Shown here piece after piece: positions 8,639 to 22,066 of a stretch of 64,000 bases of DNA. Where the stretch lies: NCBI GenBank assembly GCA_017640505.1, contig JAEPQO010000001.1, positions 1,504,625 through 1,568,624 of the forward strand, in the 5' to 3' direction. The translations under genes were made by a program, and so were the position numbers. The stretch's first letter is position 1, and each line of letters starts with the position of its first letter. The notes below the pieces were generated by a model. That model was not told the origin of the DNA and did not search any database. It saw only the letters and a program-made list of their open reading frames with translations. The DNA is from Rhodospirillales bacterium (GTDB lineage: Bacteria > Pseudomonadota > Alphaproteobacteria > Rhodospirillales > Casp-alpha2).

Positions 8639-11600
8639 TTGTTACACCGATTCGCCCGGGTTTTCCGGGCGGTTAGCGTGTCTGACAGGTTTGAACGAGA
8701 TTTGATTTTCAAGCGTACATTTGTCGGATTGATCCAGCTGATCGGCGGCCTCAGCGCAGGGCTCGCGATCATTACCCTTTTGATTGCTTGGCAGTTACAC
8801 AAGGGGCCGGTTTCGCTGTCGTTTCTGACACCCTACGTTGAGCAGGCGCTGAACTCCGGTCACCGCAGTTTCCGGCTTGCCATCGACGATACGACGCTGA
8901 CCTGGGCCGGGTGGGAACGGAACATCGAGCTGCGCGTCAAGAACGTCCGGGCCATCGATGACGGCGGCACGGCACAGGCGCGCATTCCCGAGCTTTCCAT
9001 GTCGCTCAGTGGCCGTGCCCTTGTCCGCGGCAAGCTGGCGCCGAAGTTCATCGAACTGCTTGGTCCTGAAATCCGTGTGCGCCGGGAAAAGACCGGCGCG
9101 CTGGGCATTGCCGTCGCGGCCGGTGGCGATTCTTCGGGTGACCGTTTCGCAACCGGCCTGCTGGGCTGGCTGATCAAGCGGCCGGAACCGAATTCGCCGA
9201 TGAGCTATCTGGAGACGGTCCGTATCTCGGGTGCGACCATGACCTTCGATGATCGTCTGACCGGCCGGGAATGGCAGGCGCCGGTCGGGTATCTGAAGCT
9301 GGCGCGCGCGCCGCACGGGCTGCTCGCCGAGGGCTCCTTGCAAATCGATACCGAGCACCGCGTCGCCGACATATCCCTGCACGGTTCGTTCCACAGCGAA
9401 GGCCGCCGCCTCGACCTTACTGCAGCGTTTGCGGATATCTCGCCGGCATCCTTTGCAGCGCTGGATCCGAATTTCACGGCGCTTCAGGTCGTCGACATGC
9501 CGCTAAGCGGGCAACTGATCGTCGGCACGTCGCTTGATGAAGGACTGAATACCATCGGCTTCAAGGTTGCCGGTGCGAACGGGACGCTGCACCTGCCGGG
9601 GCCGTTTGCGCAGCAGCTTCAGGTCGAGCGTGTCGCGTTCGAGGGAATATATAACGGCCGCACCGGAGCGCTCACGCTGGACAGTGGCGAGGCGACGCTT
9701 GCCGAGGGGTCCGCGCTGCATGTGCCGGCGCCGATCGAACATGCATTCCCGCTCGTCAGCATGGCGGGTGCCGGCAAGTTCGACCTCGCGTCGGCCACTG
9801 CCGATATCGAGCATCTGAGCCTGAACCTCGGTGGCCCGGTGTTCGATCTCAAGGGCCGGATCCAGGGGGTCGGCGAGACGCGAACGGTCATTACCGCGGA
9901 AACCACGCTTGCCGACGTTGCCGTCGATCAGCTCAAGACGTATTGGCCCGCCAGTCTCGGCCGCGATCCATACAACTGGGTTACCAGTCATCTCGCCGGT
10001 GGGCGGATGGTGCAGGCCGACGCCAAGTTGGCGGTCACGGTCGATGAGAACGGCGGGTTCAAGATCGATGAGCTTGGCGGCACCATGAGTGCCGAGGACG
10101 TCACGGTGACATATCTTGAAGGCATGCCCCCGGTGCACGGCGTCAACGCGGACATGAAGTTCGATGCCGACACGTTCGATGTCATGGCAAAGTCAGGGCA
10201 AAGCGGCGAAATTCAGCTGCTCGACGCGGACATACACATCAACGGTCTGCAGGCGGTCGACCAGTACATAGATATCAAGATGCGGGCCGAGGCCCCGCTC
10301 CCCGATGCTCTGAACCTGATCGAACGCGACCCGTTCAACTTCGCCAGTGCCATGAAAATCGATCCGACGAGCACACTCGGTGACAGCACGGTCGACCTGC
10401 ATCTGAATTTCCTTCTCGCCAAGGACCTGGCTGTCGAGGACGTGGATGTCAAAGCGGTCGCCGATCTGACCGGGGTCGCGATGAAGAATGTCGTGCTTAG
10501 CCGCGACATCCGGGAAGGCACGCTGAAACTCACCGTCGATAAGGCCAAGATGGAAGTCGACGGCAACGTAATGATGGGCACTGTCCCGGTGGCACTGGTC
10601 TGGAACGAGAACTTCGGTGCCGCCGCACCGTTCCGCTCGCAGTACCTGCTGGCTGCGAGAATCGATGATCTGTCCAATGTCCGCGACCTTGGTGTCGACC
10701 CGGGCCCGGCCGGTGACTTCGTGTCCGGCGGCGTCGATGCCACGGTGCGGTATACCAAGTTTGACGGTCGCAGCGGCCGTGTCGACGTGAATGCCAACCT
10801 CGAACGCGCGGACCTGCGCATTCCGGTGATGGAATGGCGTAAGGCGGCGGGTGACCCCGGCTGGGTCGACGTCACGATCCTGCTTGAAAACGGGCTGGTG
10901 AAAAGCGTGCCGAGTTTCGATGTGGTCGCCGGCGATCTGACGGTTAAGGGCGATGTCAAATACGCCCCCGCCGGCCTGGGCCTGGAACGGGTCAACCTCA
11001 AGCAGGTCCTGTTCGGCCGCACCGATGTTTCGGGTGCCGTCATCTCTCGGCCTGACGGCGGCTGGGAAATCGGCCTGCAGGGGCCGGAGCTCGAATTCTC
11101 GCCTTTGTGGGAGCGCTTGATCGGTGATCGGCCGGGGCAGGATGAACTGGAGGTTCCCGATCTGACCATTGCCGTCGAGCTCGACAAGATGTGGGTCGAG
11201 AAACAGAAATTCCTGTCCGACGTTTCCGGCACGTTCGTGCACAAGCGCGGCATCTGGCGAACCGCACTTCTCGACAGCAAGCTCAACGGCGGCCCGGTGC
11301 TGAATGTCAACATGGCACCGGACCCGGAAGGAAACCGAGTCCTGGTCGTCAAGGCCGACAATGCCGGCGATACCCTGCGTTTCTTCGATCTGTTCGAAAA
11401 CATGCATGGCGGCAAGCTGGAAATGCGCGGGCGTTATGACGACGCCGCACCGCTTCGCCCGCTGCGCGGGAAGCTCCGGGTGATCAATTACCGGGTACGT
11501 AATGCGCCGTTGATGACACGCGTTCTCTCGATCATGGCGCTGACGGGCATCGTCGACGCGTTGACCGGCGAGGGGCTGAACTTCTCGGAACTGGACGTGC

Positions 11601-17414: not shown

Positions 17415-17488
17415 AGTTTATTTGAAGCAACAGCTGTACAAAGGTGGCCGATTGACTCTCCCGCGCGGTGCGGGTTCGATCACGCCCC

Positions 17489-18715
17489 ATGACGACGACA
17501 CCCCTCGACATATTCGCGACCGACGCGCGACGGCTGGTTCTCGATCTGCAGGGACTGGCGGAAAGCCCGCGCCGGCGGCTGGACCGGGACGGCCTGCTGG
17601 ACCTGATCCGCAGGCTCGGCTTCGTGCAGGTCGATTCCATCCAGTGGGTCGAGCGCGCCCATCATATGATCCTGGCGAGCCGCTGGGACGGCTACCGGCA
17701 GAAGGATCTGCACCGCCTGATCGAGACGGACCGGATGCTGTTTGAAAACTGGACCCATGATGCGTCCATCCTGCCGGTCGAGTTCTTTCCGGTGTGGCAG
17801 CACCGTTTCGAACGCGAGCGGGAGCGCCTCGCTAAACGCTGGGCCGGGCGGCAGGGCAAAAATCACCACGACGACCTGGCGCACGTGCTGGCCCACGCGG
17901 CGGAAAACGGCGCCGTCACCGCGCGGGAGATGTCGGAGAGCCGCGACCCGGCCGATGCGGGCAAGGGAGCCTGGTGGGACTGGAAGCCGTCGAAAGTCGC
18001 GCTTGAATACCACTGGCGCACGGGTGGGCTCTGTATCTGCCACCGGCGTGGCTTTCAGAAAGCGTATGCGCTGACCGAACACGTCATCCCCGAAGCCTAT
18101 CGCACGGGCGAACCGGGGCCGGAGGGCTACATCGACTGGTCCTGCCGCGAGGCATTAGGGCGCCTCGGGTTCGGGACGGCGGGTGAGATCGCGGGCTACT
18201 GGGGCAATATCACGGCCGCCGAGGCGAAGGGCTGGTGCGACGCGCGCCTGGGCGGCGAGATTATCGAGGTCCGGGTGCATGGCGCCGGCGACAGCGCGCC
18301 GCGCAAGCTCTATGCGTTCGCCGACATCGAGACGCGCCTCGCAGACGCGACGCCGCCTGCCGATCGTCTGCGCATCCTCAACCCGTTCGATCCCGTGATC
18401 CGTGACCGCAAGCGCCTCAAGCACCTGTTCGATTTCGACTACCGGATCGAGATCTTCGTCCCGGCGCCCGAGCGCACCTACGGCTACTACATTTTTCCGC
18501 TGCTGGAAGGGGCCCGCATGATCGGGCGTATGGAAATGAAGGCGGCGCGCGCCGAGGATGCGCTTCAGGTCAGTGCGCTCTGGCCCGAACCCGGCGTCCA
18601 GTTCGGCAAGGGGCGCATGGGAAGGCTGGGAGGCGCGCTCGAGCGGGTGCGCAGGCTGGTCGGGCTATCTGATGTCCGCTTCGCTGAAGGGTGGTTGCGC
18701 TCGCCCAGGAAATAA
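17489..18715 (+). CDS. YcaQ-like winged-helix DNA glycosylase family protein
   Basis: A 408-residue protein of the winged-helix family that includes E. coli YcaQ/AlkX, an interstrand-crosslink DNA glycosylase. Matching features are the N-terminal HTH-like region (LDLIRRLGFVQVDSIQWVER), the AHHMILASRW segment, the glycosylase-core sequence RDRKRLKHLFDFDYRIEIF and the C-terminal YGYYIFPLL block. The last is the most conserved part of the family. The ATG at 17489 is preferred to the GTG at 17468 because the homologous region begins there. It is monocistronic. Activity on crosslinks is known for relatives only. Confidence 0.88.
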   Translation: MTTTPLDIFATDARRLVLDLQGLAESPRRRLDRDGLLDLIRRLGFVQVDSIQWVERAHHMILASRWDGYRQKDLHRLIETDRMLFENWTHDASILPVEFFPVWQHRFERERERLAKRWAGRQGKNHHDDLAHVLAHAAENGAVTAREMSESRDPADAGKGAWWDWKPSKVALEYHWRTGGLCICHRRGFQKAYALTEHVIPEAYRTGEPGPEGYIDWSCREALGRLGFGTAGEIAGYWGNITAAEAKGWCDARLGGEIIEVRVHGAGDSAPRKLYAFADIETRLADATPPADRLRILNPFDPVIRDRKRLKHLFDFDYRIEIFVPAPERTYGYYIFPLLEGARMIGRMEMKAARAEDALQVSALWPEPGVQFGKGRMGRLGGALERVRRLVGLSDVRFAEGWLRSPRK

Positions 18716-18790
18716 GCTGAGTGTGTTTTGATAAGGAATGACGGATCTGGCGTCTAAGTGGAAAGAGACGAATGTGGCGCATTTTTGATG

Positions 18791-18821
18791 TTGACCTTCC
18801 CGTAGCTGGTATCTCCATATA
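18791..18821 (+). promoter_or_regulatory. CueR/HmrR-type copper-responsive promoter
   Basis: The -35 element TTGACC (18791-18796) and a -10-like CATATA (18816-18821) are separated by 19 bases, the long spacing typical of MerR-family targets. The spacer begins with the CueR half-site ACCTTCC (18794-18800), then GTAGCTGG. The right half-site (GGTATCT, 18808-18814) is degenerate. The left part closely resembles the E. coli copA operator. Transcription should start at about 18828, next to the ATG at 18829. No CueR gene is in the window. Confidence 0.65.
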
Positions 18822-18828
18822 CCTCGGC

Positions 18829-19179
18829 ATGAAACGTGTCCTTGTCACCTTCCTGACGCTTCTTCTCGTTGCTGGTCCCGCGATGGCGCATCACGCCTCC
18901 AATGCGAGTGGGCACAAGGGGCACGCAGAGATGTCATCTGCAATACATGGGGCTGGTGAATACGATGAAGTCGCAGAGGACGGCGTTTCAGACTGTGAGG
19001 AGCACGACCGAAATGTCTGCTGCTCATTTGTCGTGGTTCATTGCGAGACGAACAGCGCGCGGAACGAAGTGGTATACGCACTGATTTCGCTTTCCACCGA
19101 ACCCGCCTTTTTCGTTCGCGACGACGATACCCTGCTCCGTCTCATGCCGGAGCGGGAAACCCCACCCCCTCGAATCTGA
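18829..19179 (+). CDS. Small exported His/Cys-containing protein at the head of the copper operon
   Basis: A 116-residue protein with a clear signal peptide (MKRVLVTFLTLLLVAGPAMA), giving a mature N-terminus AHHASNASGHKGHAEM that starts with several His. The centre holds four Cys (DCEEH...NVCCSFVVVHCE), and the C-terminus is proline-rich. I recognise no family. Position as the first gene behind a copper-type promoter, and the His/Cys content, suggest copper binding in the periplasm. An upstream in-frame ATG at 18772 is rejected because the promoter lies inside that extension and the signal peptide would be internal. The mRNA may be leaderless. Confidence 0.7.
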   Translation: MKRVLVTFLTLLLVAGPAMAHHASNASGHKGHAEMSSAIHGAGEYDEVAEDGVSDCEEHDRNVCCSFVVVHCETNSARNEVVYALISLSTEPAFFVRDDDTLLRLMPERETPPPRI

Positions 19180-19266
19180 GTACCAATCACGAAAATTCAA
19201 TGGTTGCGCGGCGGCTTCCGCCGGACGCGCGCCTATCTACTTGCTCAGAATCGAAGGACTATACCT

Positions 19267-19812
19267 ATGAACGTCAAGATTTTCATCCAGGCGACTTGTT
19301 CCATTGCGTTTAGCGCCATCATTGGCGCCACTTCTTCCACTGCCATGGCTGACGCGGGACACAGTACCGCCAAACTGATTGGTCAGCCCGGTAAGGTCGC
19401 CGACGCGACGCGGACCGTCGAAGTCACCATGTACGACAACTATTACGAACCCGAAAACCTCACCATCAAGGAAGGCGAAACGGTCCGTTTCGTGGTTAGG
19501 AACGCGGGAGGTTTTGTGCACGAATTCAATATTGCATCCCCCGACATGCACAAGGCGCACGGCCCGGAAATGATGATGATGCTGGAACATGGCGTGCTCG
19601 AGCCTGACCGTATCAACTGGGACGCTGCCAAGAAAATGCAGGCATCGATGGGGCACGGCATGCACAACGACCCCAACAGCGTGCTGCTGGAACCTGGGAA
19701 GACCGGCGAGATCATCTGGACGTTTACCGGCCGTGCGACCCTCGAATTCGCGTGCAATGTCCCCGGGCACTACGAGGCGGGGATGGTCGGTCAGGTGAAA
19801 CTGACGGACTGA
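19267..19812 (+). CDS. Periplasmic cupredoxin (plastocyanin/azurin-like copper protein)
   Basis: A 181-residue exported protein with a signal peptide ending near STAMADAGH. Residues about 50-181 form a cupredoxin fold. Type 1 copper ligands are visible: His in GGFVHEFN, then Cys, His and Met in FACNVPGHYEAGM. A Met/His-rich insert between strands (EMMMMLEHG, MGHGMHNDP) suggests extra Cu(I) binding, as in CopI/CopC-like resistance proteins. The ATG at 19267 is chosen because it begins the signal peptide. It lies between the small His/Cys protein and the CopA-like gene in one operon. Copper tolerance is the likely role. Confidence 0.88.
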   Translation: MNVKIFIQATCSIAFSAIIGATSSTAMADAGHSTAKLIGQPGKVADATRTVEVTMYDNYYEPENLTIKEGETVRFVVRNAGGFVHEFNIASPDMHKAHGPEMMMMLEHGVLEPDRINWDAAKKMQASMGHGMHNDPNSVLLEPGKTGEIIWTFTGRATLEFACNVPGHYEAGMVGQVKLTD

Positions 19813-19891
19813 CCGGACGCAGCTGACGTTTGATCCGCTGCGGACGCTTCCGTGGCAGGGCTCAACGACCTCATAAGAAGGAAAAAAGAAG

Positions 19892-20632
19892 ATGATTAAC
19901 CGCTCTCTGCTGCGTGCAGGTGTGATAAGCGGCGCGCTCGCCCTCTGGGCAGGCAACGCCCCGGCATCGGCCGGCGAGTATTCGCTGACCGTCGACCGGG
20001 TCACAATCGATACCGGCGACTTTACCCGGAAGGGTATCGGGTATAACGGCGCTTCGCCGGGGCCCGTGCTCAGGTTCAAGGAAGGGGAGGACGTCGTCAT
20101 CAACGTCACCAACAACCTTTCCGAACAGACCTCGATCCACTGGCACGGCCTGATCCTGCCGTATGAACAGGATGGTGTGCCGGGGATCAGCTACCCCGGC
20201 ATTGCGCCTGGCGAAACGTTTACGTACCGCTTCCCGATCGTGCAAAGCGGCACCTACTGGTTCCACAGCCACTCGCCGTTTCAGGAACCGGACGGGGCGT
20301 ACGGCGCCATCGTGATCGAGCCGAAAAAGCGCGAGCCGTTCCGGTTTGACCGGGAATACGTGGTGCAGTTGACCGACGCGCATCCGCATCCGGGCAAGCG
20401 CATCATGCGCAACCTCAAGATGATGCCGGATTACTACAACCGGAACCCGGTCAAACACGTGATCAGCGTCAATCCGGGCACCACCGTTTACATGGAAACC
20501 GAGGTCGATGCGCCGGGGCAATGGGCGTTCCATTGTCACCTTGCCTACCACGCCGACAGCGGCATGTTCCGCAAGGTCGTGGTCGAGGGTGGTCCCTCCG
20601 CCGAGGCCGCGTCTCCGGCCAGGGGGAGCTGA
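19892..20632 (+). CDS. Internally deleted CopA-like multicopper oxidase (mini-CopA)
   Basis: A 246-residue exported protein in place of the roughly 550-600 residues usual for CopA. After a signal peptide (to about ASAG), residues 28-150 are the first cupredoxin domain with copper motifs HWHG (His83, His85) and FHSH (His125, His127). At about residues 180-190 (MMPDYYNRNP then VKHVISVNPG) the sequence jumps, in frame, to the end of the last domain, with HCHLAYHADSGM (His214, Cys215, His216, His220, Met225). The middle domain and the HPxHLHG motif are missing. One type 1 ligand and two of the eight trinuclear-site His are therefore absent. Oxidase activity is doubtful; copper binding is plausible. 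The reading frame is clean and copB starts 4 bases on. Confidence 0.85.
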   Translation: MINRSLLRAGVISGALALWAGNAPASAGEYSLTVDRVTIDTGDFTRKGIGYNGASPGPVLRFKEGEDVVINVTNNLSEQTSIHWHGLILPYEQDGVPGISYPGIAPGETFTYRFPIVQSGTYWFHSHSPFQEPDGAYGAIVIEPKKREPFRFDREYVVQLTDAHPHPGKRIMRNLKMMPDYYNRNPVKHVISVNPGTTVYMETEVDAPGQWAFHCHLAYHADSGMFRKVVVEGGPSAEAASPARGS

Positions 20633-20635
20633 GGA

Positions 20636-21340
20636 ATGAAGATCAGTACAGTCATTTTCAGCGCCTTAACGGCCGGCATTCTGGTCATGTCCTCTGCTCA
20701 CGCCGAGGAACTGATCTGGGGCGTCAAGATCGAGCAAATGGAGGTCCGCGTTGGCGACAACGGGACCGATGTCGTGGCCTGGGACGGCGATGCTGTCATT
20801 GGCACCGACGAACTCAAGTTCGTCCTCAGGAACGAAGGCGAGTTCGAAACCGATGGCGATGTCCTGGAAACCATGGAGACGCAGGTGCGCATCCAGGTGC
20901 CGGTCTCGGATTTCTTCGACGTCGCCGCCGGTATCCGTTTCGATACGCCCGAAGGGCCGGATCGGACACATGCCGTCGTCGGCCTCAAGGGGCTGGCGCC
21001 GCAGTGGTTCGAGATCGACGCGGATCTCTACCTGTCTCGGCATCCGTCTTTCCGCTTCGAAGCGGAATACGAGGCGCTGATCACAAACCATCTGATCCTG
21101 ACGCCGAGCGTCGAGATTGACCTGCCGTTCAACGACGACCGGGAGATTGATATCGGTGCCTGGGGTCCGAAGACGGAAATCGGCGCTAGGTTGAGTTACG
21201 ATCTGTTCGACCGGGCCGTCGCGCCGTACGTGGGCGTGCATTACGAACGCTACTTCGGTGAAACGAAGGACATCAAAGTCGCAGAGGGCAAGGAAGGTGA
21301 TGCCCTTTGGTTCGTGACAGGTCTCAAGCTTCAATTTTGA
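20636..21340 (+). CDS. copB: Outer-membrane copper resistance protein CopB
   Basis: A 234-residue exported beta-barrel protein with a signal peptide cleaved near SSAHAEE. LIWGVKIEQMEVR at the mature N-terminus, LKGLAPQWFEIDADLYLS, the APYVGVHYERYFG strand and the terminal Phe (LKLQF) are typical of CopB. The usual Met/His-rich N-terminal stretch of Pseudomonas CopB is missing, as in many alphaproteobacteria. It ends the copper operon and is followed by an intrinsic terminator. Confidence 0.92.
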   Translation: MKISTVIFSALTAGILVMSSAHAEELIWGVKIEQMEVRVGDNGTDVVAWDGDAVIGTDELKFVLRNEGEFETDGDVLETMETQVRIQVPVSDFFDVAAGIRFDTPEGPDRTHAVVGLKGLAPQWFEIDADLYLSRHPSFRFEAEYEALITNHLILTPSVEIDLPFNDDREIDIGAWGPKTEIGARLSYDLFDRAVAPYVGVHYERYFGETKDIKVAEGKEGDALWFVTGLKLQF

Positions 21341-21347
21341 ACGAGAT

Positions 21348-21398
21348 GGCCCGGAGTTGGCTGATTAGGTTCAGTCAGCGCCGGGCCGTTTCGTTTTT
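21348..21398 (+). terminator. Intrinsic terminator after copB
   Basis: GGCCCGG (21348-21354) pairs with CCGGGCC (21381-21387), and the inner part of the stem is imperfect (GGCTGA with TCAGTCAGC). The tract GTTTCGTTTTT follows. It lies in the 78-base gap between convergent copB and a hydrolase gene. Confidence 0.7.
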
Positions 21399-21418
21399 CA
21401 CGAAAGACTTGGAAAAAT

Positions 21419-22066
21419 TTATTCCGCCGGCTGCAGATTGGCGTCGAGGTACTTCTCGACGTGCTTTTCCATCGTTTCCAGGTGGTCGCGGAAGAAGTGA
21501 TCGCAGCCCTTCACCACGTTGTAGTCGATGGTGATGTTCTTCTGCTTGCCGAGCTTGTCGGCGAGCTTGGCCACGGATTCTTCCGGGATGATGTCGTCGC
21601 TGTCGCCGTGCACCATGAGGCCGGACGCCGGGCAGGGGGCGAGGAACGAGAAATCATGGATCGAGGCCGGCGGCGCGATGGCGATGAAGCCGTTGATTTC
21701 GGGCCGGCGCATCATCAGCTGCATGGCAATCCAGGCGCCGAAAGAGAAGCCGGCGATCCAGCAACCGGTTGCGTTCGGGTTGTGACCCTGCATCCAGTCG
21801 AGTGCGGCGGCCGCATCCGAAAGTTCACCCAGGCCGCTGTCGAACGAGCCCTGCGAGCGGCCGACACCCCGGAAATTGAAGCGCAACGTGGAAAAGCCGC
21901 GACGCGAAAAGCTGTGATACAGCGAGTACACCACCTTGTTGTTCATGGTGCCGCCGTGTTGCGGATGCGGATGCAGAATCAGCGCAACCGGCGCGTCATC
22001 GCGCTTCGCGTGCTGATAGCGGCCTTCGAGGCGGCCTTCCGGTCCGTTAAAAATCACATCGGGCAT
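21419..22066 (-). CDS. Alpha/beta hydrolase
   Basis: A 215-residue cytoplasmic alpha/beta hydrolase of the short CocE/dienelactone-hydrolase-like group often found alone in alphaproteobacteria. HPHPQHGGTM near the N-terminus and RFNFRGVGRSQG are the family signature. The nucleophile Ser is in GFSFGAW, the acid Asp in HGDSDDIIP and the His in KGCDHFF, so the catalytic triad is complete. The substrate is unknown. It is convergent with copB and divergent from cysE. Confidence 0.88.
   Translation of the reverse strand: MPDVIFNGPEGRLEGRYQHAKRDDAPVALILHPHPQHGGTMNNKVVYSLYHSFSRRGFSTLRFNFRGVGRSQGSFDSGLGELSDAAAALDWMQGHNPNATGCWIAGFSFGAWIAMQLMMRRPEINGFIAIAPPASIHDFSFLAPCPASGLMVHGDSDDIIPEESVAKLADKLGKQKNITIDYNVVKGCDHFFRDHLETMEKHVEKYLDANLQPAE

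Follow-up and report, generated by a model that had tools for sequence, protein, structure and literature searches.

A copA gene in a marine bacterium from which the middle has been lost, probably by a recent in-frame deletion

Introduction

The CopA-type multicopper oxidases carry four copper-ligand motifs, HWHG, HSH, HPxHLHG and HCH...H....M, of which HPxHLHG contributes to coordination at the type 1, type 2 and type 3 copper sites. In two-domain laccases, both cupredoxin domains are complete and the four His motifs are all retained. This laccase class is named in an excerpt of PMC7036934. In an excerpt of PMC10304878, CopA is given the role of Cu(I) oxidation in the periplasm within the Cop system, whose cooperation with the ATPase system is called central to copper resistance.

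In the DNA analysed here (the window, 64,000 nucleotides), a single clean cut has taken out the middle of the copA gene of a marine bacterium, and with it more than half of the gene length. The gene resembles the CopA/PcoA family (TIGR01480) in that its N-terminal and C-terminal parts are 84% and 89% identical, respectively, to the full-length CopA from another genome of the genus (G003), and in that CopI-like and CopB genes are arranged around it in the same order, but the protein has no domain 2, no Met-rich linker and only half of domain 3. Like the two-domain (small) laccases, it is smaller than the three-domain oxidases and has a cupredoxin fold. Unlike them, it consists of one complete domain and a fragment, with HPxHLHG gone, and does not belong to this class. 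The locus is also comparable to internally deleted or decaying genes in operons, because the case is found in one genome, one event suffices and the operon is otherwise normal; in contrast to such genes, the copA in the window is in frame and both of its ends are readable.

Results and Discussion

Reading frame and retained parts of the short CopA

The internally deleted copA (19892..20632, + strand, as are all features of the window described here) was identified from its open reading frame (ORF) and from its Pfam and TIGR01480 matches. The ORF starts with ATG at 19892, stops at 20630-20632, and encodes 246 amino acids without an internal stop codon or a frameshift. About 28 residues at the N-terminus (19892..19975) look like a signal peptide, the extent of which was judged from the sequence alone; a helix was placed at residues 2-21 in the predicted model. 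The kept cupredoxin domain 1 and the linker following it (residues 30-184, 19979..20443) contain the HWHG and HSH motifs, the latter as FHSH, and the kept C-terminal part of domain 3 (residues 185-246, 20444..20629) contains HCHLAYHADSGM. Thus, three of the four copper-ligand motifs are present, and HPMHLHG is absent.

In the Pfam analysis, Cu-oxidase_3 was found at residues 39-146, and Cu-oxidase_2 at residues 182-232, the latter covering only positions 84-134 of the 137 in the profile. The CopA model TIGR01480 matched in two separate stretches, the best of which spanned residues 25-184. The score of 254.1 bits is far under the curated cut-off of 478.95, and the protein does not qualify as a member of this family. 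The ORF and the profile matches agree with a preliminary description of this DNA, in which domain 1 was said to be joined in frame to the last 60 or so residues of CopA. The join had been placed between DYYNRNP and VNPG; it exists, but its exact point is DYYNR/NPVKH, with the NP belonging to the C-terminal side.

The missing segment

The deletion junction lies between R184 and N185 (20443..20444). In a translated comparison with the same-genus ortholog G003, the copA of which encodes 589 amino acids from its ATG, 343 residues (1029 nt) are absent at this point, and the residues equivalent to G003 positions up to 205 abut those from 549 onward at contig positions 1525067/1525068. The loss takes in domain 2, the Met-rich linker and, with HPMHLHG, the first half of domain 3, so that the three-domain organization with a Met-rich linker is not preserved; the earlier estimate was that HPxHLHG and about 300-350 residues are absent. 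Fourteen related loci were compared, in two of which the middle is incompletely mapped (L040 stops at a contig end, and the gene in L044 is split). In the other 12, the segment equivalent to the loss is 954-1149 nt long (about 318-383 amino acids), and the variation resides mainly in the Met-rich linker. Judged by eye, the two sides of the break have from one to about four bases in common in the orthologs.

The lost segment was not found elsewhere in the same genome by searches with the full-length G003 protein and TIGR01480, and no locus in this genome exceeded the TIGR01480 cut-off. Relocation of the missing part within the genome was rejected, because these searches gave no other copy.

The copper cluster and its neighbours

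The first ORF of the copper cluster (18772..19179) is DUF2946-like, with a match below the Pfam cut-off, and it was matched in four of the 14 related loci (G003, G001, G004 and L065). A CopI-like cupredoxin gene (19204..19812; NF051440, 188.7 bits, under the model cut-off of 280) lies upstream of copA, and copB (20636..21340), which matches PF05275 over its whole length, lies downstream. The order CopI-like, CopA, CopB was observed in 13 of the 14 related loci, and the remaining one is cut by a contig end. The short copA begins 79 nt after the CopI-like ORF, and the ATG of copB is located 3 nt past the copA stop, as expected for a copA in an operon with copB and as tight as had been described; the gap is 3 nt in G003 too.

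The copper cluster (18716-21418) has moved or been gained within the genus, because the genes flanking it (17468-18715 and 21419-22066) are neighbours in G003, with 66 nt between the matches and no copper cluster inside, and the G003 cluster sits at another site, beside ORFs that look transposase-like and integrase-like by their sequence. No link was found between the movement of the cluster and the deletion in copA. In the surroundings of the G003 cluster (L034:489-2963 and 8998-11590), an ORF resembling a copper P-type ATPase is located on the other side.

A recent in-frame deletion as the probable origin

The short gene is probably the product of one recent, ordinary in-frame deletion of about 1 kb in a normal three-domain CopA gene, which ended the oxidase function. 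A single deletion between points with at most about four bases in common would produce it. The deletion itself rests on the comparison with the ortholog, whereas we infer that it was recent. The short CopA would be exported, and domain 1 would perhaps still fold in the absence of domain 2 and the first half of domain 3. The 246-residue protein should not act as a multicopper oxidase, because HPxHLHG is missing from every chain and identical chains cannot supply it; a trimer that rebuilds the trinuclear site was rejected by the same reasoning, since these ligands are lacking in each chain.

Expression of copB is likely to be unaffected, since the deletion preserves both the frame and the 3-nt distance between the copA stop and the copB start. 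The loss of copA may also be tolerated, because the cell still has a complete gene for a different multicopper oxidase and three genes for copper ATPases. The former is a separate, putative oxidase frame of 480 amino acids (G000:C5), in the sequence of which HWHG, HSH, HAMHMHG and HCHMLEHH can be read, and the latter are three loci that score above threshold with TIGR01511 (ATPase-IB1_Cu), a copper ATPase model. According to an excerpt of PMC10304878, removal of the whole Cop system from the Cupriavidus metallidurans parent strain decreased copper resistance only 1.58-fold, which agrees with tolerance of the copA loss. A match of the N-terminal domain alone should not lead to the annotation of copper oxidase activity.

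Constraint on the retained parts and possible retention as a copper binder

The open frame, the intact signal-like N-terminus and a constraint like that of the full-length proteins would also be expected if the small protein were useful. Selection might have preserved the deleted protein as a small copper-binding protein of the periplasm, which buffers copper without oxidising it. This is unlikely in our judgement, and we give slightly less credence to the more specific proposal that the deletion made a working one-domain, non-enzymatic periplasmic copper binder in one step, which was then held by selection. An in-frame outcome is obtained in one of three cases by chance, and favours neither the recent deletion nor the retained binder. 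An intact frame within an orderly operon should not be taken as evidence of function when a single recent in-frame deletion may be all that has changed.

Domain 1 provides a cupredoxin-like scaffold with the histidines of HWH and HSH, the tail carries HCH/H/M, and the gene sits in a copper operon of conserved spacing, all of which would suit a copper binder. The absence of decay in the retained parts is a further point in its favour. Window residues 30-234 were compared with 75 orthologs (78 sequences including the window, from which L096 and L022 were dropped). The window protein showed no departure at the 66 + 21 columns that are invariant in the other sequences. It also showed none at the 91 + 32 (123 in total) columns with at least 95% conservation, where the others average 0.97 and 0.21 departures with medians of 1 and 0; the window is thus clean, but not exceptional. 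Two departures (P129 and A218) were found at the 115 + 37 columns conserved to at least 90%. Pairwise dN/dS was 0.05-0.10 in the eight of 12 comparisons with finite dS (0.70-1.94), and dS was saturated in the other four, which indicates that the nearest relatives are far away. Relative to G003 (L005), L006 and L080, the window had the smaller non-synonymous distance to outgroups in 72 of 73, 66 of 73 and 51 of 72 comparisons, respectively, with outgroups that are not independent of each other.

In the protein tree, the window paired with L006 (support 0.928), and its tip (0.039, against a median of 0.027) exceeded those of 49 of 76 sequences; the corresponding count in the codon tree was 43 of 76. 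This longer branch probably reflects sparse sampling around the species and not fast decay, because the conserved-column counts show no decay. In a neutral simulation, the probability of zero departures was 0.27, 0.063 and 0.002 at 0.005, 0.01 and 0.02 substitutions per site, respectively. The retained part has thus hardly drifted freely, and the simulation limits unconstrained drift to about 0.01 substitutions per site.

Two explanations are left, a recent cut or a constrained remnant, and we favour the former, because the pattern of constraint is that of the full-length family. This pattern is no less compatible with a very recent cut than with selection acting on the small protein. The absence of any change at the 123 most conserved columns suggests that no adaptation to a new role has occurred, since some of these columns should face the lost domains in the full enzyme, and this speaks against the copper binder. 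With no stop, no frameshift and no departure at these columns, the gene is not a decayed pseudogene; if the copA remnant is a pseudogene, it is a very young one. The preliminary description had said that its reading would fall if no homolog with the same junction existed in related genomes and signs of decay were seen; no such homolog was found in the searches described below, and neither were signs of decay.

Structure prediction gave a divided result for the copper binder. The AlphaFold model of the 246-residue protein, built with 41 aligned sequences, had a mean pLDDT of 64.0. Block means were 66-91 over residues 31-150, in line with a folded domain 1, and below 50 for residues 171-236 and 239-246; these confidence values say nothing of measured stability. 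The full-length G003 protein (589 amino acids, 37 sequences) was used as a control and was itself of moderate confidence, with a mean pLDDT of 70.2 and low-confidence stretches at 21-49, 176-188, 209-225, 356-419 and 581-589. The tail of the control (about 528-589) had block means of 82, 87, 78, 58 and 80 over residues 531-580 and of 36 for the last nine residues, while the matching tail of the short protein had block means of only 29-44. From these models, the tail of the short CopA does not seem able to reach a confident fold unless the remainder of domain 3 is present. The right-hand breakpoint running through domain 3, together with the low confidence of the tail, therefore counts against a copper binder, as does the loss of the Met-rich linker, which would be the part best suited to copper storage. 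Moreover, the short form was seen in one genome only, in searches from the genus through the phylum. If the copper binder were real, it would illustrate in nature the reduction of an oxidase to a metal buffer, and if the small protein binds copper and protects cells, a one-step route from oxidase to metal buffer would be indicated.

Possibility of an assembly artefact or a strain variant

The occurrence in a single genome would also be explained if the short form were an assembly artefact or a minority or strain variant, and the organism or population also had the full-length gene. We consider this improbable. The breakpoints have at most about four bases in common in orthologs, which is too short for a repeat collapse, and no repeat is reported at the deletion site within the window; a repeat-driven collapse of the assembly was rejected, as neither the window nor the orthologous breakpoints (the latter inspected by eye) contained a supporting repeat. 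The reading frame continues across the join without a shift, and searches of the assembly did not recover the missing segment. With 12 contigs, the assembly is 98.55% complete and 0.01% contaminated, and the contig of the window spans 1.57 Mb or more.

Search for the same junction in other genomes

Among the genomes of the genus (8), the family (48) and the order (317), and in sampled draws from the class (385) and the phylum (398), sets that overlap each other, the junction occurred each time in a single genome, its own. CopA domain 1 was matched at E 1e-97 or better in six of the seven other genomes of the genus, and the remaining one, G002 (58% complete), gave just a weaker oxidase match. 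Matches were obtained in 25 of 48 family genomes at 1e-40, the own genome included, in 56 of 317 order genomes at 1e-50, and in 68 of 385 class and 61 of 398 phylum genomes at 1e-45. Among the matches listed for the order, class and phylum (E <=1e-50 or 1e-45), none extended past query residue 191 apart from that of the own genome. In the scan of genome contigs from relatives, the best 80 of 450 were kept, and records of the own genome were possibly omitted.

The fetched loci contained 110 frames above 150 bits, a count that includes duplicates, as several loci are one place fetched twice. Of these, 97 were full-length (at least 563 amino acids with both ends), seven were cut by a contig end, five were split between frames with the middle present, and one was that of the window, which alone joins the two ends directly, as a deletion would. 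Among plasmids, 4002 records had a match, and 25 rows among the matches listed were examined. Of the listed matches that ran past the junction, two correspond to annotated genes of 1887 and 1653 nt, which are full length, and two without a listed gene (H1 and H3) extend over 1544 and 1664 bases, more than a gene with this deletion would occupy.

Several loci with short frames were rejected as second cases, and the junction is absent from all of them. The copA copies in L100, L107, L091 and L044 are broken by a split between two frames, and that in L150 by an in-frame stop, with the middle present in all five. One alignment runs across the middle in L154, L152 and L153 both run off contig ends, and the match in L151 covers only G003 residues 70-197, a domain-1 fragment. 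No report of an internally deleted CopA was recognised among the papers listed from the open-licence PMC full text. It is thus very improbable that the protein belongs to an unseen small class of CopA-like proteins of about 250 residues with their own function, for which the open frame and the operon context, and nothing beyond, would speak, as a second member was not found in the genome sets, the contig scan or the fetched loci, and two plasmid genes among the listed matches past the junction are full length. The preliminary description had offered a deletion kept as a copper-binding protein, or a new small class; the deletion stands, with an exact gap of 343 residues against G003, and the small class finds no support, with the junction confined to one genome among those searched from the genus through the phylum.

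Some of the broken or unusual copA genes are of separate interest. In the one-contig genome G887, copA (L150:2112-3887) has its in-frame stop before the end of domain 2, and both halves are readable. The complete genome of Marinobacter similis A3d10 has two copA copies (L100:5932-7736 and L091:5986-7730), each split by a frame change, perhaps by sequencing error in both. On a Pseudohalocynthiibacter plasmid (L167:801-2526), a copA-like stretch has no listed gene in an incomplete gene table, and the next copB is 174 nt long; this looks like another decaying copper operon. The record L070, titled Oceanobacillus sp. HTM 045, carries a copA that is 78% identical to the window gene over domain 1, with 83% DNA identity over the retained 205 codons, and is possibly a mislabelled or mixed assembly.
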